Below the pieces are notes generated by a model. That model searched no databases, was not told the origin of the DNA, and was given only the letters and a program-made list of their open reading frames with translations. A DNA stretch of 34,492 nt. It comes from Candidatus Zixiibacteriota bacterium. GTDB taxonomy: Bacteria; Zixibacteria; MSB-5A5; GN15; PGXB01. The stretch is from assembly GCA_040753495.1 (NCBI GenBank), contig JBFMEF010000115.1, forward strand, positions 1-34,492. The letters run 5' to 3'. The position numbers and the translations under genes were made by a program. This document shows, piece by piece, positions 1,621 to 17,478 of the stretch. How positions within the stretch are numbered: the stretch's first letter is position 1; every line of letters starts with the position of its first letter.

Positions 1621-3432
1621 CTATTTGAGTAGCGTCATTTTACGGGACATGGCGCCGTTATCGGTGGTCATCCGGTAGATATAGGTACCGGTAGCCACAA
1701 CATCCCCTCTGACATTGGTGCCGTCCCAGGTAATGGCATGGGAGCCGGCTTCCAGTTCATCGGCGAGGAGGGTTTTGACTGTGGCGCCGAGGATATTATA
1801 AATGGTGATATTGACCTTGCTTTTTTCCGGCAGATAGAAGCTGATGGTGGTTCCAAGGTTGAAGGGATTAGGGTAATTCTGGTAGAGATGGAACTCCGCC
1901 GGTAGAAGCGGCATTTCACTGGTTTCCTTGGGAGCGGGGGTTCCGCCCAGGGCACGGCAGGCATTGATACGCCCGGTGCCAAGCAACCCCGCGTAGCTCG
2001 GATTGAGGGCATCAATGTTGTCGGTGGTAGTCTTAATGCGATTATAGACGTCGGCCCAGCCATAAGACGGGTACTGCGATTTCACCAATCCGGCCAGCCC
2101 GGCGACATATGGTGTTGCCATGGAGGTGCCGCTCATGACCGCAAAATAGTCGGGAGTCGGGTCGGCGGAATTGTGATAGGTGCTCACGATGTCCACGCCG
2201 GCGGCAGAAACATCAACCCAGGTGCCGTAACTGGAGAAGGAGGCTTTGAGGTCGTTCTTGTCGGTGGCGGCGACATTGATGACATCGGTGCGCGTTCCGA
2301 GATAATCGGCGGTGCTGTTATTGCTGTTGCCGGCGGCATGAACAACGGTCACGCCATGCGCTATGGCATAGTCCACGGCGGCGCCCAGACCGCTGGTATT
2401 GGAGGAACCCCAGCTGCAGCTGGCGACATGGGCGCCGTTATTGGCGGCATAATAGAACGCCTGCGCCGCAAAATCCATCCGGACATAGCCCATACCGCTG
2501 GTGGCGGTCCAACCTATCCTGAGGCACATGATTTTCACGCCGTTTCCGACCGAAGTGGAGGTACCATTTCCCCATCCTCCGGCGGTTCCGGCAACGCCGA
2601 TAGCGTTATTGGTCATCGCTCCGACTATGCCGGCGCAATGGGTGCCATGACCGCCAAAATCCCGCGGGTCATTGTCGGCCGTAGTGCAGTCTTCACCTTT
2701 CTTGCAACGGGTCACGCCGGTAACGAAATCCCAGCCAATCCAGTCATCCACAAAGCCGTTGCCGTCATCATCAATTCCGTTGCCGTTAATTTCATCCAGA
2801 TTTTTCCAGATATTGCCGCTGGTAGTGGGCCAGGAGGCGCCGCCCAGATCTTTATGATAATAGCGGACTCCGCCGTCAAGGACAGCCACCACCGTATTTG
2901 TGCTGCCGGCGTTAATTTGCCAGGCGCAGGGGGCATCCATATCATGGTCGGCGGCATTGGAGAGCCCATACTGGTTCCAGGGGTCGGCCTGCCCGGCAAA
3001 ATAGTAATCATTGGGAACCAGGTCATAGACCGGATGCATCGCTATCGGCTCGGCGCTCTCAACATTGGGGTCGGCGGCATAAGCGCTGATTACCTCTTCC
3101 AGCGACTGAGAGCCTCGATAGGTGATGATGCGGTATCCGGTCAGGTCGGGATATCCTGATTTGGCAACGGCGCCGGGAAATTCCTCCTCGATTGCCACCA
3201 CGCCAAAGCGACGCGACAGCTGGTCGACAGAGGGAATGCCGGTCATCACTTCTCCCTTGGCGGCGAGAGGAATATGGTTGCCGGTAATGCTGCGGAATTT
3301 AACCACGAACTGGTCGGGGACGTAGAGAACCTCATCTGATGTCTCTTCAAACGGGACATAAATCTGCTTCTCAGCCGCGGCTGTGAGGGATAGAAGCAGA
3401 GTAAGGACCAGCAACAGTAGAAGTTGCTTCAT
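1621..3432 (-). CDS. Exported subtilisin-like (S8) protease with sorting tail
   Basis: The product is a 603-residue secreted serine protease. It has a signal peptide (MKQ, then a Leu-rich core, end near residue 20), an I9-like prodomain (about 35-135) and a peptidase S8 domain with Asp186 in VAVLDGG, His262 in GGHGTHCAG, oxyanion Asn369 in HAAGNS and Ser437 in SGTSMATP. All catalytic positions are intact. Between Asp and His there is a calcium-loop-like insert rich in Asp/Asn/Gly (about 213-232). The C-terminus (about 515-603) begins YQNYPNPFN and ends RKMTLLK, a FlgD-Ig-like sorting domain as used for type IX secretion. GGAGG precedes the ATG by about eight bases. A terminator follows. Its substrate is unknown; it is probably released or attached outside the cell. 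Confidence 0.93.
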   Translation of the reverse strand: MKQLLLLLVLTLLLSLTAAAEKQIYVPFEETSDEVLYVPDQFVVKFRSITGNHIPLAAKGEVMTGIPSVDQLSRRFGVVAIEEEFPGAVAKSGYPDLTGYRIITYRGSQSLEEVISAYAADPNVESAEPIAMHPVYDLVPNDYYFAGQADPWNQYGLSNAADHDMDAPCAWQINAGSTNTVVAVLDGGVRYYHKDLGGASWPTTSGNIWKNLDEINGNGIDDDGNGFVDDWIGWDFVTGVTRCKKGEDCTTADNDPRDFGGHGTHCAGIVGAMTNNAIGVAGTAGGWGNGTSTSVGNGVKIMCLRIGWTATSGMGYVRMDFAAQAFYYAANNGAHVASCSWGSSNTSGLGAAVDYAIAHGVTVVHAAGNSNNSTADYLGTRTDVINVAATDKNDLKASFSSYGTWVDVSAAGVDIVSTYHNSADPTPDYFAVMSGTSMATPYVAGLAGLVKSQYPSYGWADVYNRIKTTTDNIDALNPSYAGLLGTGRINACRALGGTPAPKETSEMPLLPAEFHLYQNYPNPFNLGTTISFYLPEKSKVNITIYNILGATVKTLLADELEAGSHAITWDGTNVRGDVVATGTYIYRMTTDNGAMSRKMTLLK

Positions 3433-3678
3433 AAGTCATCCTCCGATGAAACGAACGAAGTTTGGGGGTAAAAAATTACTCAAACTGACCTAAAAGTAGC
3501 TCTATGCTTACCTCCTTTCCCTAAAAGTAAGAGGCGGGGAGAACTCTTTTCACCCCGCCCCCGACACGCTAACCCTTCTGTCAGAATGTCAGTCAATACC
3601 AATTTTTATTCCATTTTAACGCTTGATAAACAGAGCAGCGGGAGTCTCGCTGTCGTTCAAAAAAACTGAGAGAAATCG
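3433..3678. other. Upstream region of the first subtilase gene, no gene seen
   Basis: About 245 bases without a credible gene. The only structure I see is a GC-rich inverted repeat (3533-3539 with 3553-3559, seven pairs, 13-base loop) that would fall in the 5' leader of the subtilase transcript. It has no T-run on the minus strand, so it is not a good terminator. No convincing promoter was found. Confidence 0.5.
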
Positions 3679-3710
3679 AAAAAAAACCGCTGTTGAACAG
3701 ACAGCGGTTT
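3679..3710 (-). terminator. Rho-independent terminator closing the sigma/CHAT/subtilase operon
   Basis: On the minus strand a perfect ten-pair stem (3701-3710 with 3684-3693, loop of seven) runs into eight T (3679-3686, partly shared with the stem foot). It lies 32 bases past the stop of the dockerin subtilase and would end the whole module A transcript. Confidence 0.92.
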
Positions 3711-3742
3711 AATGTTAGTATTCTCTAACAGAAATTCTGAAT

Positions 3743-5152
3743 TTATTGAGCTGGCGGCGGTCCGGTCTTGTACAGGTATGCCAGCAGATAGGTAGTATCC
3801 AGAATTGTGATTTTGCCGTCATTGTTGGTATCGGCTATCTGCAGCGGATATGGCTGGGGACCATCCTTGTATAGATAGCTGATGATATAAATGGCATCCA
3901 GTATATTGACCAGCAGGTCGCCGTTGGCATCGCCATAAATGGTGGTCCCGGTCTGGCCGAGGGCGGCAAGAAAGTCGATTAAGCCATGACCCAGAAGTCC
4001 CTCGTAACCGATGTTAAGGGAGTCAATATTGACGGCGGTTTGACTCAAGACGGTGTCAACTTCGCTCGCCAGGAGCGCCTGATTGCGGCTAATCAGAAGC
4101 GCCGCCAGGCCGCTGACAAACGGAGCGGCAAAGCTGGTTCCTTCCCACCAGGCATAGGCTGTATCAAGGTATGCCGAATAGATGGCTGTCCCGGGCGCGC
4201 AGAGGTCTATCTTATCGCCAAAATTGGAGAACCCGGCTTTAAGATTGAGAGAGTCAAGGGCGGCGACAGCGAGGCAATAGCCCCGGTCAGCCGGAAACGG
4301 AAAGACCAGCGGGCTATCGGTTGAGTCGTTGCCGGCGGCAGCGACAAGATTTACGCCGGACGATTTGGCAAATCGAAGAGCGTCATCAAGGGCGTTATGA
4401 ATTCCCGTCATGCCAAAACTCAGATTTATGACACGACAGCTATCTTCGACAGCCATCAATACCGCTGATGCCAGACTGAATCCATCCCCAATACCGCCGG
4501 TATCGAGCGCTCTATAGACCAGAATTTCTGCCCCGGGGGCAGTTAGATTGAGAATACCGGCAATAAAGGTGCCATGGCCGGAACCGGTACCGCCCGGTTC
4601 GTCAGAGGCATCGGAATCATTATTCACAAAATCCCAGCGGGAAACGAGTATTGCCGCGGTTGAGTCAAAGAGAGGGTGCAGGAAATTCACGCCGCCGTCG
4701 ATATGGGCGATTTTAACTCCCAGGCCGGTGGAAAGGGTTTGCGCTTCGGAGAGCTCCAGGTTGACCGCGGCCGACTGCAGAGTTATAGAACCGATACCTT
4801 CGACATCAAGAAACGGCTGGCTTCTCTGGAGTGACTCGGGAGTCATCAGGAGGTAATTAAGGCGACAATAAGCGACATCGGGACGGGCATCGATAACAGT
4901 CGCAAGGCTTTCGGCATCCTGTCCCTCGGGGACAGAAAGCAGGAAACAGCCAGTTTGTTGCTGGTGTCCTTTTACCCCGGTTCCGTAGGTGGAGTTGATG
5001 ATATTTATGCTATACCCGACCTCCATCTTACAGATTATTTCCCCTTCACGGTACCCTCCGAATCCCTGCTGGGCATAAGACGAAAGCGAGGGGGCAATGA
5101 GAATGATTAGAAAACAAAGGAAATATCTGAAGGCGGAAAACTTACCTGTCAT
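3743..5152 (-). CDS. Exported subtilisin-like (S8) protease with C-terminal dockerin repeats
   Basis: The product is a 469-residue exported serine protease. Residue numbers below count from an upstream GTG two codons earlier. A signal peptide ends near SSYAQQ (about 30). A prodomain occupies about 35-105. The S8 domain has Asp154 in HIDGG, His195 in SGHGTF, Asn277 in AAAGN and Ser342 in EGTSFAAP, so it should be active. The last 65 residues form two dockerin-like calcium loops (GDANGDLLVNILDAIYIISY and a second ADTNNDGKITILDTTYL). The ATG at 5152 is preferred because GGGAGG lies at the right distance; the GTG at 5158 overlaps that site. The gene overlaps the end of the CHAT gene by 11 bases, so the two are probably translationally coupled. 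A cytosolic CHAT protein paired with an exported subtilase is unusual. Confidence 0.92.
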   Translation of the reverse strand: MTGKFSAFRYFLCFLIILIAPSLSSYAQQGFGGYREGEIICKMEVGYSINIINSTYGTGVKGHQQQTGCFLLSVPEGQDAESLATVIDARPDVAYCRLNYLLMTPESLQRSQPFLDVEGIGSITLQSAAVNLELSEAQTLSTGLGVKIAHIDGGVNFLHPLFDSTAAILVSRWDFVNNDSDASDEPGGTGSGHGTFIAGILNLTAPGAEILVYRALDTGGIGDGFSLASAVLMAVEDSCRVINLSFGMTGIHNALDDALRFAKSSGVNLVAAAGNDSTDSPLVFPFPADRGYCLAVAALDSLNLKAGFSNFGDKIDLCAPGTAIYSAYLDTAYAWWEGTSFAAPFVSGLAALLISRNQALLASEVDTVLSQTAVNIDSLNIGYEGLLGHGLIDFLAALGQTGTTIYGDANGDLLVNILDAIYIISYLYKDGPQPYPLQIADTNNDGKITILDTTYLLAYLYKTGPPPAQ

Positions 5153-7895
5153 AGGCACCTCCCATATCGCCCGCTCCGAATACGGAGAACGCTGCCCAGT
5201 GATAAGCTGAAGGGAACCGTTCCCTCACTTTGCCGGCAGCCCAGCGGGCGGACTCAAGAATAGAGTTATTCTCTCTCAATTTATTATAATAAGAAATCAT
5301 CCAAAAGGAAGCAGATTCATCAGAAAGTGGCCAAAGCGCAGCGATTATGTTTCGGGCTCCCATTTCCAGCAGTGACCGCACCAAACCGGTGGCTTCATCT
5401 CCGGGGAGCACAAGCTGTTCGCCGGAACGGCAGCCGGCCAGGGTAACCAGATTGACGCGGCATCTTTTGGCGCGAAGGTCGGCCGCAAACAGCGGTCCAT
5501 CCTCAAGTGCCAAATACGAATAGAAAGGATTATCGGTGCAGAATTGGGCATGCCCGGAATAGTGCCAGACCGCCGCTTCCGGGGCATCAATTATATCTTT
5601 GCGGCGACAGGGCGCCGAGAGGGCGGCGTTACCGCTGATTTGAGCCAACAACGACTCTAACTCGTCAGACACATGGGGAATATTTGCCGCTGCCCCCTGG
5701 AAGAGATGCCAGCGGGATGAGGCTGAATATACTTTTCGGGCATTTATATAATGCCTCAAACTGGGGGCGATGACAAAATTGAAGCGGTCGGCAAGATACC
5801 CCTCATTGTCATAGAGAGCGGCCCAGGGGATATTGCTCAGTTCCCCTTCAGGTATAATCAGAATTCGATGATAGGACTCATCCAGCCGAAGCGGCGCCCA
5901 GAGCATATCCCCTAATTCGGAAAGAAGCGACCGCTCCGATTGAAAATTTCTCAGGGAAGTCAGATAACCTGTAAGAAGTTCCGACTCAAGCAGAAAACGC
6001 CAGCGCAAAAGAATCTCCTGCAGATGAATTCTTCCTTTTTCAAGCCGATGGGTTTCTACCGTCCCCTGTCGGTGAAGAAATATAATAATATCATCGTCCT
6101 GCAGATGAAACTGCACCACCGGATGCTCGGAGGAGACATGGCGGAAGTTCGCCGCCAGTTGTTCCGGCGCATAGGAAGAACCGGCTTTATCCGGTTCACA
6201 GGCAAGCATTGACTCACGGATTTCGCGGCGCAGATGTTGAAGCGCCGCCTGATGAGTCGCTGCCGTAAAGCCGCGCTTCCCGTTCCCTTCATAAATCTGA
6301 TGAGACAGGGCGGCGACCTGACGAGCCAATAAGCCGAGGTTCCTTTGAATTTTTGTCATATCGGTGGCATTCTCGGATTCCGATATCAGCGGCGCCCAGA
6401 TACCTGCGGTTTTAAACCGCTCCGACCAAACCGCGGCGCGCATCGGGCTGTCTTTCAGCTCCATGTCAATCAGTTTGCGATGCGGCGAATTCTGGGCGCG
6501 GGCAAAAGCGGAGCGCAGGTCGAGAGGGGGAAGCTGGGCGCGAAGCAGGTCAAGGGTTTCGGCCGCGGTTTCCCAGTGATTTCGCGCGGCGGCAAGGTCC
6601 CCTTGCGCCTGTTTCAGTTCACCCAGGCGGGTCTGCCAGGCAATAGACAGATGGGGCATCTCCCGCAGAGCGCGATTCCGTTTGAGACGTTTCACCGCCA
6701 CACTGGATAATGATTTTTCATAGCTGAGCCGCAGGTCGCAGATTGCTTCCCAGAGGGGAAGCTGTGCTCGCGAGAACTGCTTGCGGGCGGCGTTAAGATA
6801 TCTGGTTCTCTTTGAAGAATCGGATTTGGCGCGAACCAAATCCGCCGCTGTCAGTTGGCTGACACCGAGAAACCCCCCGTTTTTCTCTCGGGAAAATCCT
6901 TTTAGCGCCTGGACAACAGCTTTTTCGGCTTCGGTTTTCCGCCCAATTCTAAGCGCCGCCTGCGCCCGAAAGAGCGAGGCTTTGCTCCGTTCATATTGCA
7001 GACCGAGAACGGCGAATCTCTTTTCGGCAAGGGCGGAGATATCGAAGGCATCATGATTCAGCCCCAGACCCAGATAAACTTCAGCCCGGTCCAGGGCGCA
7101 GAGGGCCTCTCCCCGATGGTCTCCCCCGTCACGATATATTTTTTCGCAGGCGGCAAGTTGCAGGAGGGCCTGATGGAATTTACCGGTCAGCATCCACAAC
7201 CAAGCCAGGCCATAACGGGCATCGTTAGCATCAAGCGTGCAGCCGGCTTCAGCATAAATCTTCTCCGAATCCCGGTAGAGCCTTTCGGCGGCGGCGATAT
7301 CGAATAACTGGAGAAGGACATTGGCGCGGTTATAGTAACATCTCGCCAGCGCCAGGCGGTTGCCGCTTGCGTCAAAATAGTCTGCCGCCTGGTGATAGAT
7401 TTTTTCCGCTTCGCGATGCCGGTCCTGACGATGGAGTATATTGGCGTAGTTTACTCTTGCCTGAATCCAGTCATTATCCGCTTTTAAAGCTTTGAATGCG
7501 GCCATAGCCCGGCGGGCCGATTGTTTCGCTTTGTCATAGTCGCCCAGATAGAGATATACATCAGCAAGCGCCCGGTCAATCCGGGCACGGACAAGGGGTG
7601 ATCTTTCGGAAAGGCGGCGAGCGCTAAGATAGGCGCGCCGGGCATCACGATGGCGACCGCTCATATGAGAGAGTCGTCCCACCGCCCGGGCGGCAGTCAG
7701 CCGCATCTCGGGTGAATGATGACGGGAGACAGCGGCAAATCGGCGCGCCAGTTTGAGAGCCTCATTAAGAGAGGTCCGTGAGGCTTTCTGAATTAAATTC
7801 TCGCAGCCCCGCGCTAATTCCAGCTCAGAAATGTCGACCGCTTCTCCAGTCCGAAGAAACAGCCGCGCCGCTATCTGGGATTGCTCTTCGTCCAT
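5142..7895 (-). CDS. TPR-CHAT protein, caspase-like protease
   Basis: The product is about 917 residues (942 from the alternative upstream ATG at 7970, which would overlap the preceding gene by 100 bases). Using the 942 numbering, residues 60-480 are helical and contain tetratricopeptide-type repeats (for example the helix pairs around YLYLGDYDKAKQSARRAMAA). From about 610 to the end is a CHAT domain, a clan CD (caspase-related) peptidase. The His/Cys pair is present: His807 in HYSGHAQF and Cys847 in TLAGCRSG, followed by the usual DEATGLVRSLLEMGAR and AALWPLSD segments. There is no signal peptide or membrane span, so it should be cytoplasmic. In known TPR-CHAT proteins the repeats sense a partner and gate the protease. 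It sits between a zinc-motif protein and an exported subtilase in one operon. The target is unknown; start choice is moderately sure. Confidence 0.92.
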   Translation of the reverse strand: MDEEQSQIAARLFLRTGEAVDISELELARGCENLIQKASRTSLNEALKLARRFAAVSRHHSPEMRLTAARAVGRLSHMSGRHRDARRAYLSARRLSERSPLVRARIDRALADVYLYLGDYDKAKQSARRAMAAFKALKADNDWIQARVNYANILHRQDRHREAEKIYHQAADYFDASGNRLALARCYYNRANVLLQLFDIAAAERLYRDSEKIYAEAGCTLDANDARYGLAWLWMLTGKFHQALLQLAACEKIYRDGGDHRGEALCALDRAEVYLGLGLNHDAFDISALAEKRFAVLGLQYERSKASLFRAQAALRIGRKTEAEKAVVQALKGFSREKNGGFLGVSQLTAADLVRAKSDSSKRTRYLNAARKQFSRAQLPLWEAICDLRLSYEKSLSSVAVKRLKRNRALREMPHLSIAWQTRLGELKQAQGDLAAARNHWETAAETLDLLRAQLPPLDLRSAFARAQNSPHRKLIDMELKDSPMRAAVWSERFKTAGIWAPLISESENATDMTKIQRNLGLLARQVAALSHQIYEGNGKRGFTAATHQAALQHLRREIRESMLACEPDKAGSSYAPEQLAANFRHVSSEHPVVQFHLQDDDIIIFLHRQGTVETHRLEKGRIHLQEILLRWRFLLESELLTGYLTSLRNFQSERSLLSELGDMLWAPLRLDESYHRILIIPEGELSNIPWAALYDNEGYLADRFNFVIAPSLRHYINARKVYSASSRWHLFQGAAANIPHVSDELESLLAQISGNAALSAPCRRKDIIDAPEAAVWHYSGHAQFCTDNPFYSYLALEDGPLFAADLRAKRCRVNLVTLAGCRSGEQLVLPGDEATGLVRSLLEMGARNIIAALWPLSDESASFWMISYYNKLRENNSILESARWAAGKVRERFPSAYHWAAFSVFGAGDMGGAYDR

Positions 7896-8461
7896 TTGAT
7901 TTTGGGCAGTTTGATAGATTTCTCGCCCGCCTGCAGAGAGAGAGCCCCGGGTGGAGTCTTGCTCGACCATTGATAAAAACCGTGACGGTCGGGATGAACG
8001 GTTTTCTTCCCTACATTCAGGTCGGCCTCGCCCATTTCGGCTCCGCTGACCTGGCCGATAAATACCCAGCCCTCATCAGTATGCTCCGCACGAATATCAA
8101 TATTAATGTTCTCGGCTTCAAAGCGAAGGCGCCGCTGGTCCAGAAGAGATTCTCCTCGAACTCCCACCGGCTGAGGAATTTTCCAGGAATCAAAGGTCAA
8201 CTCTGCCACCAGAGTCTTGAGCGTTCCAAGAACCCCTGTCCTCTTGCCGAGCGCCACCGCTTTTTCAATCCATCCTGTAGGGGCATCAGGAAGCGGCAGT
8301 TGACCCGCAAGCGGAAAGGCTTTCAGCAGTTCCAGTTCCTGACGGCATTCCGGGCAATCTTTAAGGTGCCGGGGCCGTTTTTTATCTTTATCCCGCGCCA
8401 TTTCTATCAACTCTTCTCTTGTAAAGTGCATATCTTTCATATGTTTCTTCACCGGTCTCAT
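7871..8461 (-). CDS. Soluble zinc-motif protein, putative anti-sigma factor
   Basis: The product is 196 residues with an HxxxCxxC motif at His32, Cys36, Cys39 (RHLKDCPECRQELELL). This is the ZAS/zf-HC2 signature of zinc-binding anti-sigma factors. It lies 13 bases after the sigma-factor stop codon, the usual place for a cognate anti-sigma gene. There is no transmembrane helix, so it would be a cytoplasmic anti-sigma, unlike the common membrane form. The C-terminal 100 residues look like a beta-sandwich (GWVFIGQVSG through KSIKLPKIKW), similar in style to a carboxypeptidase-regulatory or Ig-like fold. Alternative ATGs exist at residues 8 and 11, and none has a strong ribosome site. It overlaps the CHAT frame by 25 bases. 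Its anti-sigma role is inferred from motif and position. Confidence 0.8.
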   Translation of the reverse strand: MRPVKKHMKDMHFTREELIEMARDKDKKRPRHLKDCPECRQELELLKAFPLAGQLPLPDAPTGWIEKAVALGKRTGVLGTLKTLVAELTFDSWKIPQPVGVRGESLLDQRRLRFEAENINIDIRAEHTDEGWVFIGQVSGAEMGEADLNVGKKTVHPDRHGFYQWSSKTPPGALSLQAGEKSIKLPKIKWTKSNPR

Positions 8462-8474
8462 AATACAGAGTGGT

Positions 8475-9047
8475 TCAATCGGTTTTTCGTTCTCTTAGAT
8501 ATCCGTTGCTGATAAGAATCTCTTTTAATTTCTCCAAACATCGCCTTCGGATGGGTCCTAAACTGTTGGGGGCAAGCCCCAGTTTCCGGGCGATTTCTTC
8601 ATATGACTCCTCTTCCGCAGCGTAAAAAAACTCTTCGAGGATTCTGCGGCAACGGGGGTCAATCTGCTTGAGGGCGAGTTCAAGATGTATCTGGCATTCG
8701 AGACGCTCTAAGGCGACGTCAGGTAGCGGTGACGGGTCCGGTTCCTCGGGATTGACATCACCGCCGGAGTCTTTTTCGGCAAGACGGCTCAGCCGCATCG
8801 CCTCGCGCTTGGCGGTGGTAACCAGCCAGGCGGAAATACGGGAGGGGTCTTTTAGTTTGCGGCGATTCTGGTAAAGAAGCACCCAGGTTTGCTGGAAACA
8901 ATCGGCGGCATCGGCAAGCGACAGCCCGGAGCGGGTGGCGACGGCGTAAACCAATCGTTGATAACGGCTTACCAATTCTTTCCAGGACTCGGGACGATTA
9001 TGGAGAATCTCCTCCCAGAGTTCGATGTCGGTTTTGTGAACGGCCAT
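8475..9047 (-). CDS. ECF-like RNA polymerase sigma factor
   Basis: The product is a small sigma-70 family protein of about 190 residues. Region 2 is visible as ELVSRYQRLVYAVA, then DAADCFQQTWVLLYQN and ISAWLVTTAKREAMRLSR. Region 4 appears as LKQIDPRCRRILEEFFY and the helix-turn-helix SYEEIARKLGLAPNSLGPIR. Regions 1.1 and 3 are absent, as in extracytoplasmic-function sigmas. I chose the ATG at 9047 because a promoter-like TTGACT/TATCTA pair at 9068-9095 would put the transcript start after the alternative ATG at 9077, which would give 200 residues. It is the first gene of the sigma, zinc-motif, CHAT, subtilase series, all tightly packed. It probably directs transcription of its own operon and perhaps others, but no second matching promoter has been shown. 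Confidence 0.88.
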   Translation of the reverse strand: MAVHKTDIELWEEILHNRPESWKELVSRYQRLVYAVATRSGLSLADAADCFQQTWVLLYQNRRKLKDPSRISAWLVTTAKREAMRLSRLAEKDSGGDVNPEEPDPSPLPDVALERLECQIHLELALKQIDPRCRRILEEFFYAAEEESYEEIARKLGLAPNSLGPIRRRCLEKLKEILISNGYLRERKTD

Positions 9048-9060
9048 ATTGGATTTCTCT

Positions 9061-9084
9061 GCCGATATAGATACCATTATCGGC
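9061..9084. repeat. Inverted repeat overlapping the sigma-gene promoter
   Basis: GCCGATA (9061-9067) and TATCGGC (9078-9084) are perfect inverted arms separated by ten bases. They cover the putative -10 element and the alternative start codon of the sigma gene. Spacing and position would suit an operator, but chance cannot be excluded. Confidence 0.4.
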
Positions 9085-9399: not shown

Positions 9400-10902
9400 T
9401 CAGTAAGGGCCTATCCATGGAGGACAAATAGGAGCATTACCATCTTTATATAAATAAGCCAACAGATAAGTCACGTCTAAAATATTAACAGTGCCGTTAC
9501 CATTTGCGTCACCCGATTCCAATGGAATAGGCGCCGGTCCACCTTTATAGAGATAAGAAATGAGATAGGTCACATCGAGGATATTGACAATGCAGTTTGC
9601 ATTCGCGTCGCCACAAAGATAGTAAACACTGAATGGACCAGTTGAATCGAGCACCGGAACCATATACCAATCAGTACCTTCTATTCTCAGATAGAAAGTG
9701 CATCCGAGTATGTTCGGGACCATCCAATCGTAACTATTTATAATTATGTTGCTATCGATCGGAACCCAAGAGGACATGTTGTCGATTGAATATGAAAGGT
9801 CTAGCCGCTGAAAACAATCCTCCGCTAATCCATGCGGACAATCAACTTCAAAGTCCATTGAGAGAAGTGATCCGATATGTACTGAATCACTTTGATTAAT
9901 GGGGATTATTCTAGTTTTGCAGGGCGGTTGATTCAGAGTGACCGTTTCAATGACCTGAAGCAGGTCGCGCGCGACTCCCTCCACTAGCAACATCACGGTT
10001 ATGGTATCAACAGCACCCACAGGAGGATAGCACAGGCCTTCAGTATAAGCCACAAAAGTAACTGGTATCGAATCATGTGCTGGAACAGTACAAATTTCAC
10101 TGTAACTACAGTCGACAGAATACGGTATGAACGGCGTGTGCTCCAGGTAACAGTCAATTGGAAAATCGGAATTATTCTTCAAGTAAATGGTAGTGTCGTA
10201 ATCGTGTCCTGCAGGCCTTGAAAAATTAAGGCTGTCTAAACTGAATTCAATGCTAGTATCTGTGGAAAGTGCTTCAAAACAGACATCATCAAAGTAGGTA
10301 AAATTGCCATCCTCACAGGATTGTAGTACGATTGTACCGGGTGCCATAATTGGAGAAGGGTCGAGATAATTCAGGGAGTCTCCGCTTCCGTCTGGCATTC
10401 TGTAGCCATATGTGATGATATTGGGTGCCTCTCTTCTTATGAAAACCTGAAACCATTGATACGATTGAAGTATGACAGGTATGGAGCTGACTGGGGTGAT
10501 ACCCTTCTGGAGAATAAATGTAGTCCCCGGTACAAATCGTACTCTGTAGCCGCCATCTGTCATGCCGATAGGTACCTGGATGGCAAATTCGTTATCCGTG
10601 GAGCCAGTCTGATGATTTGCCCACACACTATATTCTCCATATATGGCTGAAAAATCATTGCGATAAATCTTTCCCCAGCAAAAGAATTGTGCTTCTCTAG
10701 ACAGGCCAATACTCTTCGCTCCAGAATGTACTGGAGTGGTTGCAACGACGACTCCACCTTCAGTGTTGGTCCAATTGGAACTCCAGTCATTCTCAAACCC
10801 ATCACAAAATGATAATTGTGCATATGTTCCAGGATGAATTAACATCACAAATGACAGAGGCAATACCAACAGGGCTCCTCTCCATGACATTTCTACGTTC
10901 AT
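9400..10902 (-). CDS. Exported dockerin-repeat protein, function unknown
   Basis: The product is 500 residues. A signal peptide (hydrophobic 9-27, cleavage near TYAQ) is followed by a lectin/laminin-G-like beta region (about 33-215, starting CDGFENDWSSNW), then an Ig-like segment (about 220-330) resembling the choice-of-anchor/BACON style, then two C-terminal dockerin loops (about 430-495, CGDANANCIVNILDVTYLIS and GDANGNGTVNILDVTYLLAY). GGAGG lies four bases before the ATG. No catalytic motif is visible, so it is more likely a binding or structural surface protein. The gene is visibly lower in GC than the CHAT and Lon-like genes on either side, and it separates modules A and B. It has its own terminator and is probably an independent unit. 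Confidence 0.85.
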   Translation of the reverse strand: MNVEMSWRGALLVLPLSFVMLIHPGTYAQLSFCDGFENDWSSNWTNTEGGVVVATTPVHSGAKSIGLSREAQFFCWGKIYRNDFSAIYGEYSVWANHQTGSTDNEFAIQVPIGMTDGGYRVRFVPGTTFILQKGITPVSSIPVILQSYQWFQVFIRREAPNIITYGYRMPDGSGDSLNYLDPSPIMAPGTIVLQSCEDGNFTYFDDVCFEALSTDTSIEFSLDSLNFSRPAGHDYDTTIYLKNNSDFPIDCYLEHTPFIPYSVDCSYSEICTVPAHDSIPVTFVAYTEGLCYPPVGAVDTITVMLLVEGVARDLLQVIETVTLNQPPCKTRIIPINQSDSVHIGSLLSMDFEVDCPHGLAEDCFQRLDLSYSIDNMSSWVPIDSNIIINSYDWMVPNILGCTFYLRIEGTDWYMVPVLDSTGPFSVYYLCGDANANCIVNILDVTYLISYLYKGGPAPIPLESGDANGNGTVNILDVTYLLAYLYKDGNAPICPPWIGPY

Positions 10903-11089: not shown

Positions 11090-13264
11090 TTATTTTGAGA
11101 TTTTTGAAGATTTTTTCAGATTTTCGGCCGCCCGAAGCTGCCCCTCGGTTACCCAGCCAGAATCGGTCCAGTAGGTGACGGTGTCAAGAAGATGCGCGAC
11201 ATATCGCTCATACGGAATATTAGGCAACTGTCCTTCACTTACCCCTCTATCACGGAGTTTCCGAAAGGGGTCATTGAGAACCGGCTGGACGACCCGGAGT
11301 CGGGCATCCAAAGGGTACAAAATATCGTAGGCGCCATATTTGGCATCACCATGCTCTCTAATATTCACGGCATAACCGTTGTCGGTTTTCCAGATTCCGG
11401 CGCCTCCTGGCTGATTATAGGGAAGGGCCGAGAAAGCTTTGCTGAGATCAGTCTGCGGGAAAAGAACATATGCCAACTGCGTACCGCGTTTAAGCCATGA
11501 ACGGTCTCGAAATTCGTTCTTTGTGTATGGAGGCGAGCAGCCCCACGCCGAATCGGGGTCAATTACCGCAAGAGCGGCACAGCCCATCGGGTTATTGTAG
11601 CTGAGAAAGAAGACCTCCAAGTCGCCGTCAGAGTCGAAATCGTCGGCGAAACAGGGCCAGCTGGCGCCGGCATTTATGTACCAGCCGAGTGAATCGCCAT
11701 AAACCGTCCAGAAGGTAGCATGGGAACCGGCCGGTGTCTGGGTGCATACTGTGGTAACAATGATTTTTTCATCGTCAAATTCAAATACCCTAATATGCTC
11801 GGCGTCAACAGTATATGGAGTATCAACGATATATTCATTCGGAATCATACAGGACCGCTTGAAAAGCAATTCACCGTCAAAAGAGTAGCAGAAAAAGCAG
11901 GCATATTCGGGAGTGCGCTCCAATGCTTCCGGTAGAATCAAGACCTCATTTCTGCCATCGTCATCCAGATCATACAAAATCATATTTGACGCCTGAACAT
12001 GGTCGGCAGGGATAGTCCAGGGAAACTCCAGCGTCCAGAGCAATGTATCGCCGGAGTTGAAGAATTCAATGGCTTTGTTATCGGTGTCGACATGGAACCT
12101 CACCGGGTTGTCGTTTTCAATGGGAGTGAATAACTTCACGGAGAAAAAGGCAAGAAGCGACAACATCACCACTAACATGGGAATCTCGAACTTCGGATTG
12201 CGGACCGTTTGAACTGTTTTCCGCGCCCGATACGCCACCGGGCTGACTTTGCTTCTGGTCACAAAGCGGGGGTCGGAGAGCACGCTCGGCAGTTCCTCCA
12301 CCCCGTACAACTCCAGTTTGCGGCGGGGATAAGGCGACTCCAGCTCTTTGAGATAGCCCCAGCAGTCATCGATATGCTCCCGCGGTATTACCAGATATTT
12401 CAAGCCGGAATGGAAGGCGCGGAAGATTTTCAATTTCAGCCCCTGGGCGTCAATCGGCAGGATTTTACCCTCGGCAGATAACGCTCCCGAAAAGACGGCG
12501 TCGGGGGCGACACTGATTTTCTCCCGCAAGACTTCAAGCCTGGCAATCGCCGCCACGGCTCCGACAGCGAAGGCGACCCCGAGCGAATCGCCGGTAAAAC
12601 GGGCGCCGGTATGGTCCACATGAAAGTTTATCCGATAGCGACGTCGCGACGGCAGATTATGGCTCTGCTCCAGATATTTTCGGGCCGCCGCCGCCGAATC
12701 GCGCGCCTGTTTCAGAAAAGAGTCGTTTGATTTGAGAAGGGGATTGCGGATATCGACATCATCAGTCTCATTCCGGGGTGATATTCTCTCGGCCGAGACC
12801 CGGAGTGTCAGGATTCTCCCTCTGGGGTCAAGACCGAGTTCCGGGAAATGCTCAACAAACAGGGCTTTAAGAGATACTCCGTTTCCTTTTTCATCTGATT
12901 CCGCGATTAATTCGCCATTATGCACGGCGCGCAAGTAATCAGAAATCTTCCGATGCAAAGTCTGCAGATGCTCCAGGTCATCGCCGGAGCAGATTCCGGC
13001 AGGAAGCCCGCCGAGAAACTCCAGCAGTCCTGAAAGCTGCACGGCATCAGCCGGAAGAAATTCACGCGGGTCGGCTTTCTGTGAGGCGACGGTCAGTTTC
13101 GGAATAAATTCCTTAAAGTACGGTTCGACAAGTTCGGGGAGTTCATCTTTCAAACCGGAAAAGAACTTCAAAATGCAAACAGTTTCCAGTTCCGGCGACG
13201 GCGCCAGCCGCAACGCCTGACGCAGACGTTCGCTCTCGGATTCAATTTGCAGGAAATTGGGCAT
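11090..13264 (-). CDS. Membrane-anchored Lon-type (S16) protease with FG-GAP-like outer domain
   Basis: The product is 724 residues. Residues 1-190 are mostly helical and of unknown fold. Residues about 205-330 match the proteolytic domain of Lon: FTGDSLGVAFAVGAVAAI corresponds to the Lon GPSAG block with nucleophile Ser227, and GKILPIDAQGLKLKIFRA corresponds to the LPIGGLKEK block with Lys279, followed by YLVIPREH. The Ser-Lys dyad is therefore present. There is no AAA+ domain. A single hydrophobic helix (361-379, MLVVMLSLLAFFSVKLF) follows, and the rest lies outside with calcium-loop signatures such as YDLDDDGRNEV and DDFDSDGDLEVF, as in FG-GAP/VCBS propellers. It could transmit an external signal to an internal protease. 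It starts four bases after the zinc-motif gene and is surely co-transcribed with it. I know no described family with this full architecture. Confidence 0.85.
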   Translation of the reverse strand: MPNFLQIESESERLRQALRLAPSPELETVCILKFFSGLKDELPELVEPYFKEFIPKLTVASQKADPREFLPADAVQLSGLLEFLGGLPAGICSGDDLEHLQTLHRKISDYLRAVHNGELIAESDEKGNGVSLKALFVEHFPELGLDPRGRILTLRVSAERISPRNETDDVDIRNPLLKSNDSFLKQARDSAAAARKYLEQSHNLPSRRRYRINFHVDHTGARFTGDSLGVAFAVGAVAAIARLEVLREKISVAPDAVFSGALSAEGKILPIDAQGLKLKIFRAFHSGLKYLVIPREHIDDCWGYLKELESPYPRRKLELYGVEELPSVLSDPRFVTRSKVSPVAYRARKTVQTVRNPKFEIPMLVVMLSLLAFFSVKLFTPIENDNPVRFHVDTDNKAIEFFNSGDTLLWTLEFPWTIPADHVQASNMILYDLDDDGRNEVLILPEALERTPEYACFFCYSFDGELLFKRSCMIPNEYIVDTPYTVDAEHIRVFEFDDEKIIVTTVCTQTPAGSHATFWTVYGDSLGWYINAGASWPCFADDFDSDGDLEVFFLSYNNPMGCAALAVIDPDSAWGCSPPYTKNEFRDRSWLKRGTQLAYVLFPQTDLSKAFSALPYNQPGGAGIWKTDNGYAVNIREHGDAKYGAYDILYPLDARLRVVQPVLNDPFRKLRDRGVSEGQLPNIPYERYVAHLLDTVTYWTDSGWVTEGQLRAAENLKKSSKISK

Positions 13265-13268
13265 AGCC

Positions 13269-14078
13269 TCAGGTGAAGAGGTAGATTTCGATAGTATCGC
13301 GGCTGTCTATTCGGGGCAATTCCAGTTGGTCGGTCAGGTCCGATTTAATCATCACAAGTTCCCTGGAGCCCTTTTCGCGGACAGCAATTTTCAGGGGAGC
13401 GGCCGGAACGCCGGTTTCTTTCGGCATAATTTCAAGTCGCAGCGCCTTGCCGGCGCCGGTGTCCTGGAGTGATATTCTGACCTGGTCGCCATCCGGGCTG
13501 GATAGAATAATTGTCCCTTCCGGTTGTGGAATATCTTTGAAAGGAACAAGGCAAAAACGGGCGCGGGCAACGCGGACTTCAGCGGTGAGTTTCTCCGAAT
13601 CAGGCCAGGGGATTCGACCGAGGTTGACCCGCCCTTTCTCATCGGTCATACATTCACTTCCGCCAAAAGGGCTCACCAGGACGTTTTGATAGAGCGAAGG
13701 GTCATCAGATATGAGATATAGCCAGACCTCGCGGGTATGGGAATCGCGCACCGCTTTCAGCATGATGCGCTGGTCAGTGGAAAGCAAAGTAGTCGATTCG
13801 GAGCCGACCTCCAGTTTCAGCCCTTCGGCGGCAATCGCCGGCATTCCGACCTCAGTCAGCAGAGCGCCGCGCCACTGATAGAGATAGAAAAGGCGGGGCG
13901 AATCCGGTTGCGACCAGCGGCGGGAATAATGTTGCAGTTCCTCCCGTCTTTTCTCCACCAGAAAACGGCAAAGATGACAGCTCTCCAGGTGTCGCTCCAG
14001 CGCGGCGCGCTCTATCGAATCCGATCCCAGTATAAACAGGTCCCATTCATTAGCCCCGGGACACGGGACTGAAGTCAT
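13269..14078 (-). CDS. Soluble zinc-motif protein, putative anti-sigma/adaptor
   Basis: The product is 269 residues. Near the N-terminus it has HxxxCxxC at His30, Cys34, Cys37 (RHLESCHLCRFLVEKR), the same ZAS-type zinc motif as the protein before the CHAT gene. The rest (about 75-269) is predicted beta-rich, with a segment GRVNLGRIPWPDSEKLTAEV that looks like the end of a carboxypeptidase-regulatory/Ig-type sandwich. No signal peptide or membrane helix is seen. The start is strongly supported by AAGGAGGAG just before the ATG. It is followed after four bases by the Lon-type protease gene. No classical sigma gene precedes it. The gene before it encodes an unknown 358-residue protein which might fill that place. 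The anti-sigma role is inference. Confidence 0.78.
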   Translation of the reverse strand: MTSVPCPGANEWDLFILGSDSIERAALERHLESCHLCRFLVEKRREELQHYSRRWSQPDSPRLFYLYQWRGALLTEVGMPAIAAEGLKLEVGSESTTLLSTDQRIMLKAVRDSHTREVWLYLISDDPSLYQNVLVSPFGGSECMTDEKGRVNLGRIPWPDSEKLTAEVRVARARFCLVPFKDIPQPEGTIILSSPDGDQVRISLQDTGAGKALRLEIMPKETGVPAAPLKIAVREKGSRELVMIKSDLTDQLELPRIDSRDTIEIYLFT

Positions 14079-14206: not shown

Positions 14207-15283
14207 TCAATTCCCATACTTTTTTCTAAAATAATCATTAAAACGCTGCCGGGCATGATATGCCAGGGTGTCGAATTGGCGGTACTCTTCGCGATAGACA
14301 TTGCCGCTCACCCCGCCTTTAATATAAGGCTCTAAATACTGCCAATAATACATTGTATCGTAATAAGATACGAGGTCGTCGGTCAAATTGAGCAGGGCTT
14401 TTTGAAAAACCTCAGCCAGCGGCTCGGACAGCATCCCTTTCGACACCCAGTCATCAATAATCTCCTTGACATCCTCCAGCGCCGCAAGGCAAGCCTGGTT
14501 CGCATCTATCTTGTGATGGGGGTTTACCACAGGTACGGGTGGAGGCTGTTCTAACTGTTCCTTGAAATACTCCGCGAGCAAGTCAAACAGTTCTTCAATC
14601 GACACTACCGGTGAGCGTGAGCCGATTATATTGACCTCTTCTAACAGCGCCTCAATAATGTCTCCCAGGCTTTTCTTATAGGTCGGGATACGATGAAGAA
14701 TGTTATTCAATTCGTCGCGGCTGCACAGGGGAGTTCCTTCGCGCAGATTACTGATGTCCGACAGTACTATCCAGCGAGGGGCATCATCCGGAAAACGACG
14801 GAACCGTTTGTCCCTTCTTAATGTCACATAATAGTTGCGATGAAGTTTCGGTATTACCGGGTTATGCTCAGCCCAGCGATGGAAGAGTTGCTGCAAGGCT
14901 TCACGATAAATGACCCTTTCATACACCAGGAAGAGCTCGGCATCGGGCAGCTCTGTTGCCCAGCATACCGATTTGCGGAAATATCGTTCTCGGTCTTTAT
15001 CTGAAAAGATGTTTCCAAGCAGGGTTAGCGCCATCTCCTCCGGGGTGCAATCGGCCGATTTGACGGCGGCGCGGAGACGGTACTCCAGGCACCCTGCTCG
15101 AGTAGCGACCATATAAGCGCCCATCTGGATAAGACGATTGAGGTCATGACTTGATATTGTGCCGTCACAGAGACGGCGAATCAGTCGCGCAATTTCGATG
15201 ACAAACGGTCGGAGTTCTTTCACGTCCTGATAAATGCAAAGGGATGGGTCGGTTGATAGAATTATGGAACTAATATACGGCAT
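14207..15283 (-). CDS. Uncharacterised 358-residue protein upstream of the zinc-motif/Lon pair
   Basis: I do not recognise this protein with confidence. It is predicted mostly helical and has no signal peptide or membrane span. The first half has charged helices and the pattern YRLRAAVKSADCTPEEMALT, LGNIFSDKDRERYF, RVIYREALQQLFHRWAEHNP and KLHRNYYVTLRRDKRF. This recalls a group of uncharacterised proteins with remote sigma region 2-like character, but that is an impression, not a match. The C-terminal third is again helical (about 265-358). A short AAAGG precedes the ATG. It sits 128 bases upstream of the HxxxCxxC gene on the same strand, the place a sigma factor would occupy by analogy with module A. 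It could equally be unrelated. Confidence 0.75.
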   Translation of the reverse strand: MPYISSIILSTDPSLCIYQDVKELRPFVIEIARLIRRLCDGTISSHDLNRLIQMGAYMVATRAGCLEYRLRAAVKSADCTPEEMALTLLGNIFSDKDRERYFRKSVCWATELPDAELFLVYERVIYREALQQLFHRWAEHNPVIPKLHRNYYVTLRRDKRFRRFPDDAPRWIVLSDISNLREGTPLCSRDELNNILHRIPTYKKSLGDIIEALLEEVNIIGSRSPVVSIEELFDLLAEYFKEQLEQPPPVPVVNPHHKIDANQACLAALEDVKEIIDDWVSKGMLSEPLAEVFQKALLNLTDDLVSYYDTMYYWQYLEPYIKGGVSGNVYREEYRQFDTLAYHARQRFNDYFRKKYGN

Positions 15284-15399
15284 TGCGCCTTTTCGTCAAT
15301 GCCAAAGTAGGTGATGAATTCCTTTCCGCCTATATTTCAATTTAAGGCGCAAGCCGGTATCAATGTCATTGCGCGAAGCCCGCGCCGCAAGAGAATACC

Positions 15400-16665
15400 T
15401 TACTCAACTTTCAGAATTTGAATCATGGTGTCGGTATGAGATTCTCCGGTTTGCGGGTCGAGCCAGGGGTTGGCGACAGCGATTCTCACCGAGTTGCCAT
15501 CTGCATCCAAACCGAAGAGGGCGCTGGTTTCATCCTCACCAAGGACCGAAAGAGTAGTCTGTTTCTGATAAAAGGTTACAACTTCTTTTATATTGTCGCC
15601 GGTTCTGTAACAATAAATCTCTTGCCCCATCACTTCCCTGGCGTATTTGGTTTGAGCGGCATCAAGTTTCGCCCCGGGATAAATCTCCACATCGAATTGC
15701 GTTTCGTTCTTTTTGACGGCAGTAGCGCCGGATGTTGCCTTGCCGGTTTTGACCAGTTCTACTCTCCGGTTTTTGGCGCGTCCTTCCTCCGTGCCATTAT
15801 CGGCAACCGGTTTGTCCTCGCCATATCCGACCGTGGAGAGTCGAGCTTCGTCGATTTTCTCAGCAACAATCGCCTCCTTGACTGCTTTCGCCCGGTTTTC
15901 CGAAAGAAGAATATTGGCGGCGGAATCGCCAACATTATCGGTATGCCCTTCAACACCAAGCATAAGTTCCGGGTTGGTCTTCATCATCTGGACTATCTGC
16001 TCTATGATTGGTCTGGAGTCAGGGCGAATAGTCGCTTTCCCGAAATCGAAGTTGATATATAAAGTCACTTTTCCGTCACGGTTGAGAGCCTCAAACATTC
16101 CGCTGGCGGTGACATCCTGTTTCATCGCTTCCTTGACAATAAGAGTCAAATAATATTCAAAGCCGTCATTGAAGGTCACGATTTCGACCCAGAGTTCATT
16201 ATCGCCTTTAAGAACCTTGCCGGTCAGCATGCGGTAGCCGCAGTTTATGGCGCAGTTGGCGCCCTCGCAGATGCCGTCAAAGATGACCGTTCCGCCCATA
16301 TTCCGGATGGCGCTTTCGTAGTTGCGAATAATCTGTAATTCGCTCGCCTGTTCACTCTCCTCACCCATCATATACGACCGGAACATTTTTCGGCCTTCAA
16401 TGGTGGTGCAGTCATTGCCGTTGTAAAAATGGTACTCGTCAAACTCCCGGTCACCGGTGTCAATGATCTTATACTTCGGCATTCCGGAAAAGTACGGCGT
16501 GTCTTTAAGTTGCGGTTCCTCGGCTGCTTCTTCCGTTTCTTCTGTGACCGTTTCTTCCGTGACGGCTTCTTCCTCCCCTTCTTCCTCCTGCGCTACCGCC
16601 GGCAGGGATAATAGGAAGAGAGGAAGTATCAGCGCTGTGACCGTCAGAAATCTTTTAAGGTACAT
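15400..16665 (-). CDS. OmpA-family envelope protein
   Basis: The product is 421 residues. A signal peptide ends near PAVAQ (26), followed by a Glu/Thr-rich acidic linker (27-52), a domain of about 140 residues with four cysteines (85-200), a canonical OmpA-type peptidoglycan-binding domain (201-306), and a C-terminal domain (323-421). In the OmpA domain the two residues that hold diaminopimelate are present at the expected spacing: Asp243 in EGHTDNVGD and Arg258 in SENRAKAV, with the AKNRRVEL ending. The C-terminal domain recurs in the next gene upstream. AGGGAG precedes the ATG. It is the last gene of a three-gene envelope operon and follows its neighbour by 18 bases. It probably anchors an envelope complex to peptidoglycan. 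Confidence 0.92.
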   Translation of the reverse strand: MYLKRFLTVTALILPLFLLSLPAVAQEEEGEEEAVTEETVTEETEEAAEEPQLKDTPYFSGMPKYKIIDTGDREFDEYHFYNGNDCTTIEGRKMFRSYMMGEESEQASELQIIRNYESAIRNMGGTVIFDGICEGANCAINCGYRMLTGKVLKGDNELWVEIVTFNDGFEYYLTLIVKEAMKQDVTASGMFEALNRDGKVTLYINFDFGKATIRPDSRPIIEQIVQMMKTNPELMLGVEGHTDNVGDSAANILLSENRAKAVKEAIVAEKIDEARLSTVGYGEDKPVADNGTEEGRAKNRRVELVKTGKATSGATAVKKNETQFDVEIYPGAKLDAAQTKYAREVMGQEIYCYRTGDNIKEVVTFYQKQTTLSVLGEDETSALFGLDADGNSVRIAVANPWLDPQTGESHTDTMIQILKVE

Positions 16666-16683
16666 AGCTACTCCCTTTCGATA

Positions 16684-17478
16684 TCAGTTAGATTTTGTAA
16701 TCATAATCTGTGTGTCGTTGCGGGTCTTACCCGTATAACTATCCAGCCAGGGACTGGAAATGGAGATTATCAGGATGACGTCATCGGCGCTTCTCATATA
16801 TGAAACAACGGTTTCGTCGCCGTAAAGCGGCATGAACCCCGCTAATCTTGCCGTTATATTATCATAGAAGGTCTTGACCTTATCGAGTTCCGCGGAGGAC
16901 ACAAAACAATAGCCGTCAATACCCAGGATGTTTCGAGAAAATCGGGTCAGTTCTTCGTAAAGCGCAGCCCCGGGGAAGATATCGATGCCAAAAGGGTTTG
17001 AGATGGTAGCCAGTGAGACTCCGGATGAATCAAGGGCGGAGACTACTACCAGGTTAATTCCGCTTTGAGTATTACCGGATTTAGCCGATATCTCCAGTCC
17101 GACAGGTTTGATGCGGAGACGGCTCGAATCGATGCCCTTTGCCACGATGGCATCTTTGAGCTCTTTGGCGCGCTCACTCGCGAGAGATTCCGACTTTTCG
17201 CCGACGCCGGCATAAGATTCAATTATCAGGTTCAACGCCGGGTCAACATTCATAACTTGAACAAGTTCCTCAACGAATTTTTGTGATTCTGATTGGAGTG
17301 TGGCGCTCCCGTTTTGGAAGGAAACGTCTAAGGTTACGCGACCATTGAAGTACAACTTATCCAGCAGAGTCAATTGGCGGGTTTCGGTAGAATCAGACTC
17401 CTGAGGTACTGATTGATTAGATAACAGCGCCCAGATGATTATAAATATTACATAATAGAAATTCTTCTCTGCCTTCAT
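16684..17478 (-). CDS. Degenerate OmpA-like paralogue with shared C-terminal domain
   Basis: The product is 264 residues with an N-terminal hydrophobic segment (8-20) that could be a signal peptide or anchor. Residues about 45-150 follow the OmpA pattern (VTLDVSFQNGSATLQSES, then SERAKELKDAIVAKGID) but the GHTDNVG block is replaced by SYAGVGEK. The arginine is kept (Arg103) and the aspartate is lost, so peptidoglycan binding is doubtful. Residues about 163-264 align with the C-terminal domain of the next OmpA protein: IFPGAALYEE, GYCFVSSAELDKVKTFYDN, SSPWLDSYTGK and DTQIMITK match IYPGAKLDAA, YCYRTGDNIKEVVTFYQ, ANPWLDPQTGE and DTMIQILK. A strong GGAGGAG site precedes the ATG. It is probably a tandem duplicate that has specialised. 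Confidence 0.85.
   Translation of the reverse strand: MKAEKNFYYVIFIIIWALLSNQSVPQESDSTETRQLTLLDKLYFNGRVTLDVSFQNGSATLQSESQKFVEELVQVMNVDPALNLIIESYAGVGEKSESLASERAKELKDAIVAKGIDSSRLRIKPVGLEISAKSGNTQSGINLVVVSALDSSGVSLATISNPFGIDIFPGAALYEELTRFSRNILGIDGYCFVSSAELDKVKTFYDNITARLAGFMPLYGDETVVSYMRSADDVILIISISSPWLDSYTGKTRNDTQIMITKSN

Follow-up and report, generated by a model that had tools for sequence, protein, structure and literature searches.

A Lon-type protease domain joined to a membrane helix and an FG-GAP-like outer part in a conserved gene unit of Zixibacteria: a putative receptor-protease

A Lon-type (S16) protease domain without AAA+ module is joined, in a single 724-aa protein of Candidatus Zixiibacteriota bacterium, to one predicted transmembrane helix and a beta-rich outer part, and its gene is the third of a conserved unit that also encodes an orphan helical protein and a protein with an anti-sigma-type zinc finger. 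The S16 fold of this protein (gene 3), recognized in a structural model, and its aligned and invariant Ser-Lys dyad are demonstrated, and peptidase activity is inferred. The term receptor is likewise an inference from architecture, with neither ligand nor assay behind it. It is proposed, with a probability of about 0.52, that the gene 3 receptor-protease cuts the product of gene 2 and thereby frees that of gene 1; the proteolytic activity, the substrate, the role of gene 1, the ligand and the target genes are all inferred. The stretch of DNA analysed, hereafter the window, comprises 34,492 nt (assembly GCA_040753495.1, contig JBFMEF010000115.1, positions 1–34,492, forward strand), and the window coordinates given below refer to features on the minus strand unless noted otherwise.

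Gene 3 (11090–13264, ATG start) was modelled with AlphaFold2 from 20 homologues, with pLDDT 86 and pTM 0.50. The model presented helices at residues 2–115, an alpha/beta domain at 128–340, a helix at 357–379 and a beta-rich region at 389–706, and the arrangement of these domains remains uncertain because of the pTM of 0.50. The N-terminal helical domain (residues 2–115; 12920–13261), delimited by AlphaFold secondary structure and homologue alignment, is longer in most homologues, where the alignment gives it the look of a helical repeat. It is followed by the S16 proteolytic domain (residues 128–340; 12245–12883), supported by Pfam, phmmer, AlphaFold and Foldseek.

Sequence and structural comparisons converged on this assignment. 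The Pfam Lon_C model matched residues 206–329 with 21.8 bits, just above its cut-off of 21.1, and the phmmer search of the PDB retrieved the Archaeoglobus fulgidus LonB 1z0b with an E-value of 6e-6 (1e-6 with the domain alone). In the LonB alignment, the catalytic positions were occupied by Ser227 (codon 12584–12586), within the GDSLG motif of residues 225–229, and by Lys279 (codon 12428–12430), the second lysine of QGLKLK at residues 274–279, which aligns with the Lon catalytic lysine. Both residues, together with G225, G229, G266 and R282, were invariant across 34 aligned homologues. Moreover, the best 50 Foldseek matches of the gene 3 model were all Lon proteases (E 5e-11), and the isolated protease domain of E. 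coli Lon (1rr9) was superposed with a TM-score of 0.82 and an rmsd of 2.8 over 204 columns. As for the ATPase, a pattern search of 41 gene 3 proteins found the Walker A P-loop in none of their cytoplasmic portions, its only match lying in the outer part of one protein (locus L037); as a control, four of six resident Lon ORFs showed the motif (GPPGVGKT). Only about 125 residues precede the protease domain, and gene 3 does not meet the AAA+ module criterion for membership in the ATP-dependent LonA or LonB groups.

The best hydrophobic stretch of gene 3 spans residues 361–379, within the single transmembrane helix of the model (residues 357–379; 12128–12196). In the homologue family, the 20 residues flanking this helix contain on average 5.5 K/R before it and 1.5 after it, and, given this bias, the positive-inside rule predicts that the protease side lies in the cytoplasm and the beta side outside. 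The outer, envelope-side domain (residues 389–706; 11147–12100) is beta-rich and carries a conserved C-terminal YWTDSGWVTEGxLR motif. It includes two FG-GAP/calcium-type loops of the DxDxDGxxE/D form: DLDDDGRNEV (residues 432–441; 11942–11971), in which D432 and E440 are nearly invariant, and DFDSDGDLEV (residues 542–551; 11612–11641), missing from some homologues. FG-GAP_3 scored 17.1 in this copy, below the Pfam cut-off of 26.9, and was matched in six of 20 family members. The family profile of the outer domain matched the calcium-loop beta-propellers of the rhamnogalacturonan lyases YesW and YesX (E 1e-5), and a whole propeller has not been established. The extended C-terminal sequence YWTDSGWVTEGxLRAAE (11147–11200 and homologues) ranks with the most strongly conserved stretches of this domain and has no known function.

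Several features of gene 3 had already been claimed in a first-pass annotation made from the sequence alone. Its open reading frame at 11090–13264, its assignment of Ser227 and Lys279 to the Lon dyad, its single helix near residue 370, its two calcium loops placed outside (here by charge bias) and its absence of AAA+ all held. An S16 fold had been claimed for residues 200–335; the fold was confirmed and its limits were corrected, since the domain starts near residue 128. The main part of the check set beforehand, namely a predicted structure with the S16 fold, was satisfied by the match to 1rr9, with the dyad supported by alignment and not by a measured Ser-Lys distance. The FG-GAP-like nature of the outer part is supported by the family profile and not by the single sequence, and the description as a one-protein receptor-protease is supported insofar as the receptor role is read from architecture. 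The homologue search that it had suggested, carried out on 60 relatives, yielded about 20 true homologues in the same order.

What that annotation had missed was the conserved unit of gene 1, gene 2, protease and exported protein, which constitutes the main evidence for function. In all 36 loci in which the three genes were visible, they lay on one strand, with gene 1 first, gene 2 second and the protease gene third, and the spacing between gene 2 and gene 3 was often 0 to –4 nt, so that these genes usually touch or overlap by 4 nt. A scan of genome contigs with a single protein gave no matches, and the alignment-based scan gave 16 loci, mostly from Candidatus Zixiibacteriota, plus one from Abyssobacteria SURF_17. 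When 132 genomes of the phylum were searched with the gene 2 profile, about 35 contained full-length relatives, with a maximum of four copies per genome. Within the genomes searched, the gene 3 system is nearly confined to Zixibacteria, its spread outside the phylum not having been followed. One genome (G051) presented runs of N within the protease gene (L099:5625–6797 and L045:8313–9983), whose N- and C-terminal parts lie far apart on one chromosome, probably because the assembly is chimeric or a stretch was masked.

Gene 2 (13269–14078) encodes an acidic soluble protein of 269 aa, ends 4 nt before gene 3 in this window and is the proposed substrate. The median pI of the family is 4.9, and no clear membrane helix was found in its copies, except in one with an odd C-terminus (L104). 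Its N-terminal domain is shown by sequence to be of the zf-HC2 anti-sigma type, with sigma binding and inhibition being inferred: the finger, of the form HxxxCxxC, has H30, C34 and C37 invariant, and the gene 2 profile retrieved only anti-sigma factors from the PDB (RsiW, E 1e-3; the RslA-type 3hug, 0.008; DdvA, 0.1). The zf-HC2 model was matched at E ≤ 0.1 in six of 14 members, and the copy of the window alone reached E 0.16. The finger profile also matched small proteins adjoining canonical sigma genes (G007:C1 873908/874440, G002:C73 and G018:C29).

A parallel operon is found directly downstream of the gene 3 unit in the same window. It is composed of a sigma-70 factor (8475–9077), a 196-aa zinc-finger protein (7871–8461) and a TPR-CHAT protease (5142–7970). 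In 30 Zixibacteria loci containing this finger protein, including that of the window, the sigma gene was upstream in 29 and the TPR-CHAT gene downstream in all 30. The gene 2 finger was aligned by hhalign to that of the 196-aa protein with a probability of 96.9, against at most 0.2 in column-shuffled controls. A kinship of the whole of gene 2 with the CHAT-operon protein was considered and rejected, as cutting the alignment restricted it to the zinc finger. Both units share a three-gene plan in which the second gene encodes a homologous finger and the third a protease, whereas the CHAT operon starts with a true sigma factor, has CHAT instead of Lon and shows no recognized outer sensor. Because the fingers are homologous and the layouts parallel, gene 2 is interpreted as the anti-sigma-type protein occupying the equivalent slot, where Lon stands for CHAT and gene 1 for the sigma factor.

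Gene 1 (14207–15283) encodes an orphan helical protein that occupies the sigma-factor position. Its listed ATG falls within the spacer of a housekeeping-type promoter, TTGACG-N16-TATATT (15272–15299); for this reason, and as the copy of a sister genome of the same genus starts there, the GTG at 15221–15223 is likely the true start, giving a protein of 338 aa. Family members have about 340–365 residues and are almost wholly helical (model pLDDT 88). Gene 1 had no Pfam or NCBIfam match, and the PDB sequence search was negative. The comparison of its profile with 20 resident sigma proteins by hhalign gave a probability of 0.5, and Foldseek against the PDB and viral sets was negative, the best matches being sigma-70 structures with E 0.35 and TM 0.13. 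Gene 1 was thus not recognizable as a member of the sigma-70 family, given that the sequence, profile and fold tests were all negative and the weak matches to MyD88 and sigma-70 were not significant. The search for an autoregulated promoter upstream of gene 1 found only TTGAC-N16-18-TATA enriched, and since this motif is of the housekeeping type, nothing points to autoregulation through an alternative sigma factor. Enriched words in front of gene 4 were also discarded as a promoter motif, as they in fact encode the conserved C-terminus of gene 3. Two genes for OmpA-family proteins (15400–17478) lie immediately upstream of gene 1; the sister genome (L032) has this pair as well, and it was not seen in the other loci read.

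The fourth gene of the unit (9400–10902) encodes an exported protein of 500 aa with a dockerin. Its position behind the unit is kept and its content varies by locus, comprising FG-GAP, lectin, propeller, dockerin or T9SS tail. Among 31 loci with room for it, 27 presented a same-strand gene behind gene 3, of which 26 look exported and one encodes a transporter, and four had none. T9SS tails were found in 15 of 20 gene 4 proteins examined and dockerins in three more. Against a background of 44 ORFs with T9SS tails in a whole 3.08-Mb genome, this frequency has a binomial probability of 2e-23 if about 2,700 genes are assumed.

Two experimentally studied cascades offer precedents for the proposed mechanism. 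CalpL, in which an AAA+-less Lon protease is coupled to a SAVED sensor, forms oligomers upon binding cA4 and cleaves the anti-sigma factor CalpT, releasing the ECF sigma factor CalpS (PMC11417357, PMC12751052), and the TPR-CHAT protease Csx29 cuts Csx30, an inhibitor of CASP-sigma (PMC10028731). It is on account of these precedents, the gene order and the anti-sigma-type finger that cutting of gene 2 and release of gene 1 are proposed. In this view, the outer FG-GAP-like domain would face the periplasm and probably sense the state of the envelope or surface, the signal perhaps being the exported gene 4 product or a shared ligand. The signal would cross the single helix, most simply through a change in oligomeric state, and switch on the cytoplasmic ATP-independent Lon domain, which would then make a specific cut in the soluble anti-sigma-type zinc-finger protein of gene 2. 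Gene 1, the proposed transcription regulator, would be freed by this cut and might be an extremely divergent sigma factor or another DNA-binding or regulatory protein. The main weaknesses of this mechanism are the lack of sigma homology in gene 1 and the housekeeping-type promoter. It also counts against it that gene 2 outside its finger shows no detectable kinship with the CHAT-operon protein, that the domain arrangement of gene 3 is uncertain, and that no cleavage site, ligand or activity is known. A bolder reading, held with rather less confidence and less likely than not, is that gene 3 represents a new class of transmembrane receptor whose outer domain directly controls an inner Lon, which frees an unknown type of transcription regulator, gene 1, from the anti-sigma-type protein of gene 2, in an outside-in cascade without kinase, second messenger or intramembrane proteolysis.

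The most serious rival, which remains possible, holds that gene 2 serves the protease as adaptor or inhibits it, gene 1 being the substrate or another effector, so that the outer domain would tune the destruction of gene 1 or other cytoplasmic proteins and the unit would be a module of regulated degradation instead of anti-sigma release. It is favoured by the absence of detectable sigma homology in gene 1, by the fact that gene order alone does not tell which partner is cut, and by the example of YlbL, a membrane Lon without AAA+ that clears the regulator YneA and does not release one (PMC6051672). Against it stand the anti-sigma type of the gene 2 finger and the cutting of the inhibitor in both experimental parallels, CalpL/CalpT/CalpS and Csx29/Csx30/CASP-sigma. 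An export or assembly checkpoint is unlikely. In such a scheme the outer domain would bind periplasmic T9SS/dockerin cargo, such as the gene 4 product, and expression of envelope genes would be adjusted by the inner protease, the mechanism remaining unchanged and the signal being cargo stress and not an outside ligand. The exported protein directly behind gene 3 in 26/31 loci, the T9SS tail in 15/20 and the FG-GAP repeats that gene 4 proteins often carry themselves speak for it; however, the main domains of gene 4 vary completely between loci, these genomes encode many exported proteins (one has 44 T9SS tails), and four loci have no such same-strand gene.

Two further explanations carry very little weight. 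A defence or cell-suicide module, in which attack from outside would activate the protease to destroy cell proteins, could be suspected from the defence effectors among CalpL and TPR-CHAT relatives and from the patchy presence of the system (full-length gene 2 in about 35/132 phylum genomes), but none of the three proteins gave a useful PADLOC match, and the loci read showed no obvious defence-island context, their constant neighbour being an exported surface gene. Similarly, a dead protease serving as scaffold has known counterparts, as the Lon-like domains of RadA and ComM do so, and it would agree with the low identity to active Lon (about 18–20%) and with a serine motif, GDSxG, unlike the GPSAG of LonA. 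Nevertheless, GDS is also found in the best-matching LonB-type chains, and neither Ser227 nor Lys279 varies in any of 34 divergent homologues; this invariance of the dyad makes a dead protease improbable.

The receptor-protease reading may be placed beside systems already described. CalpL shares with gene 3 an AAA+-less Lon and a sensor in one chain, an anti-sigma-type neighbour and a third partner, and the likeness extends to the cutting of an inhibitor only as a proposal for gene 3, drawn from gene order and the finger. CalpL differs in its cytoplasmic SAVED domain, its cA4 ligand and its type III CRISPR context, while the putative sensor of gene 3 is an outer FG-GAP-like domain past a membrane helix, and CalpS is an ECF sigma factor, which gene 1 cannot be recognized to be. 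No SAVED or CARF match was obtained in the C-terminal part of gene 3, no CRISPR gene was recognized among the genes of the window, and CalpL was absent from the PDB sequence matches of the protease domain up to E 10. The PDZ-Lon (S16) protein YlbL of Bacillus subtilis has a single helix, a Lon domain with Ser-Lys dyad and no AAA+ (PMC6051672), but its helix is N-terminal with Lon and PDZ after it, whereas the Lon domain of gene 3 precedes the helix and is predicted inside. That the Lon and PDZ parts of YlbL lie outside is inferred from its mostly extracellular substrate YneA. No PDZ match was found in gene 3, and the YlbL-type layout is not met. LonC of Meiothermus taiwanensis is also an ATP-independent Lon proteolytic domain (PMC3391209), although it is a hexamer with a large AAA-like N-terminal part that degrades unfolded proteins and lacks an outer sensor or receptor architecture. 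Archaeal LonB (A. fulgidus 1z0b, Thermococcus onnurineus 3k1j) gives the best sequence match to the protease domain and shares the GDS motif and membrane association; LonB differs in lacking an outer domain and in possessing an AAA+ module, into which membrane segments are inserted. The DegS/RseA/RpoE and RsiW-type cascades likewise lead from an envelope signal to a sigma factor by the cutting of an anti-sigma factor. In these, the anti-sigma factor spans the membrane and is first cut from outside, whereas gene 2 is soluble and the gene 3 protease itself is membrane-spanning.

The S16 domain, Lon without AAA+ (CalpL, YlbL and LonC) and the logic of a protease acting on an anti-sigma factor were therefore known already, and the first-pass statement that a Lon domain without ATPase but with an outer sensor would be unusual was overstated as regards the missing AAA+. 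In the literature searched, no paper was found on a Lon and FG-GAP fusion or on this Zixibacteria system. A 2008 survey of S16 architectures (PMC2605481) reported Lon_C fusions including PDZ-Lon, Mg_chelatase-Lon, Sigma54-Lon and DnaB-Lon, and in its relevant sections no FG-GAP fusion was listed. As far as this literature shows, the novelty resides in the membrane receptor architecture and in the three-gene unit with an orphan partner. If the proposed reading is true, the protease-cuts-anti-sigma logic of CRISPR systems (CalpL, Csx29) would also serve envelope receptors, Lon and CHAT proteases would occupy the same slot of parallel operons, and a bacterial receptor would have a protease as its inner enzyme in place of a kinase or cyclase. 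The conserved unit of four genes would also gain a function, in a phylum whose regulation has hardly been studied, and a compact outside-in switch would become available for engineering.

The neighbourhood of the unit presents some additional features. The CHAT operon (5142–9077) resembles a CRISPR-free cousin of the CASP-sigma/Csx30/Csx29 cascade. Directly behind its CHAT gene are two secreted subtilases (1621–5158), one with a dockerin and the other with a type IX tail; the sister genome retains at least the first of them, and both might be outputs or partners of this operon. Finally, on the plus strand, positions 27287–32761 encode a large surface protein of 1824 residues with FG-GAP repeats, right-handed beta helix/NosD repeats and a dockerin.
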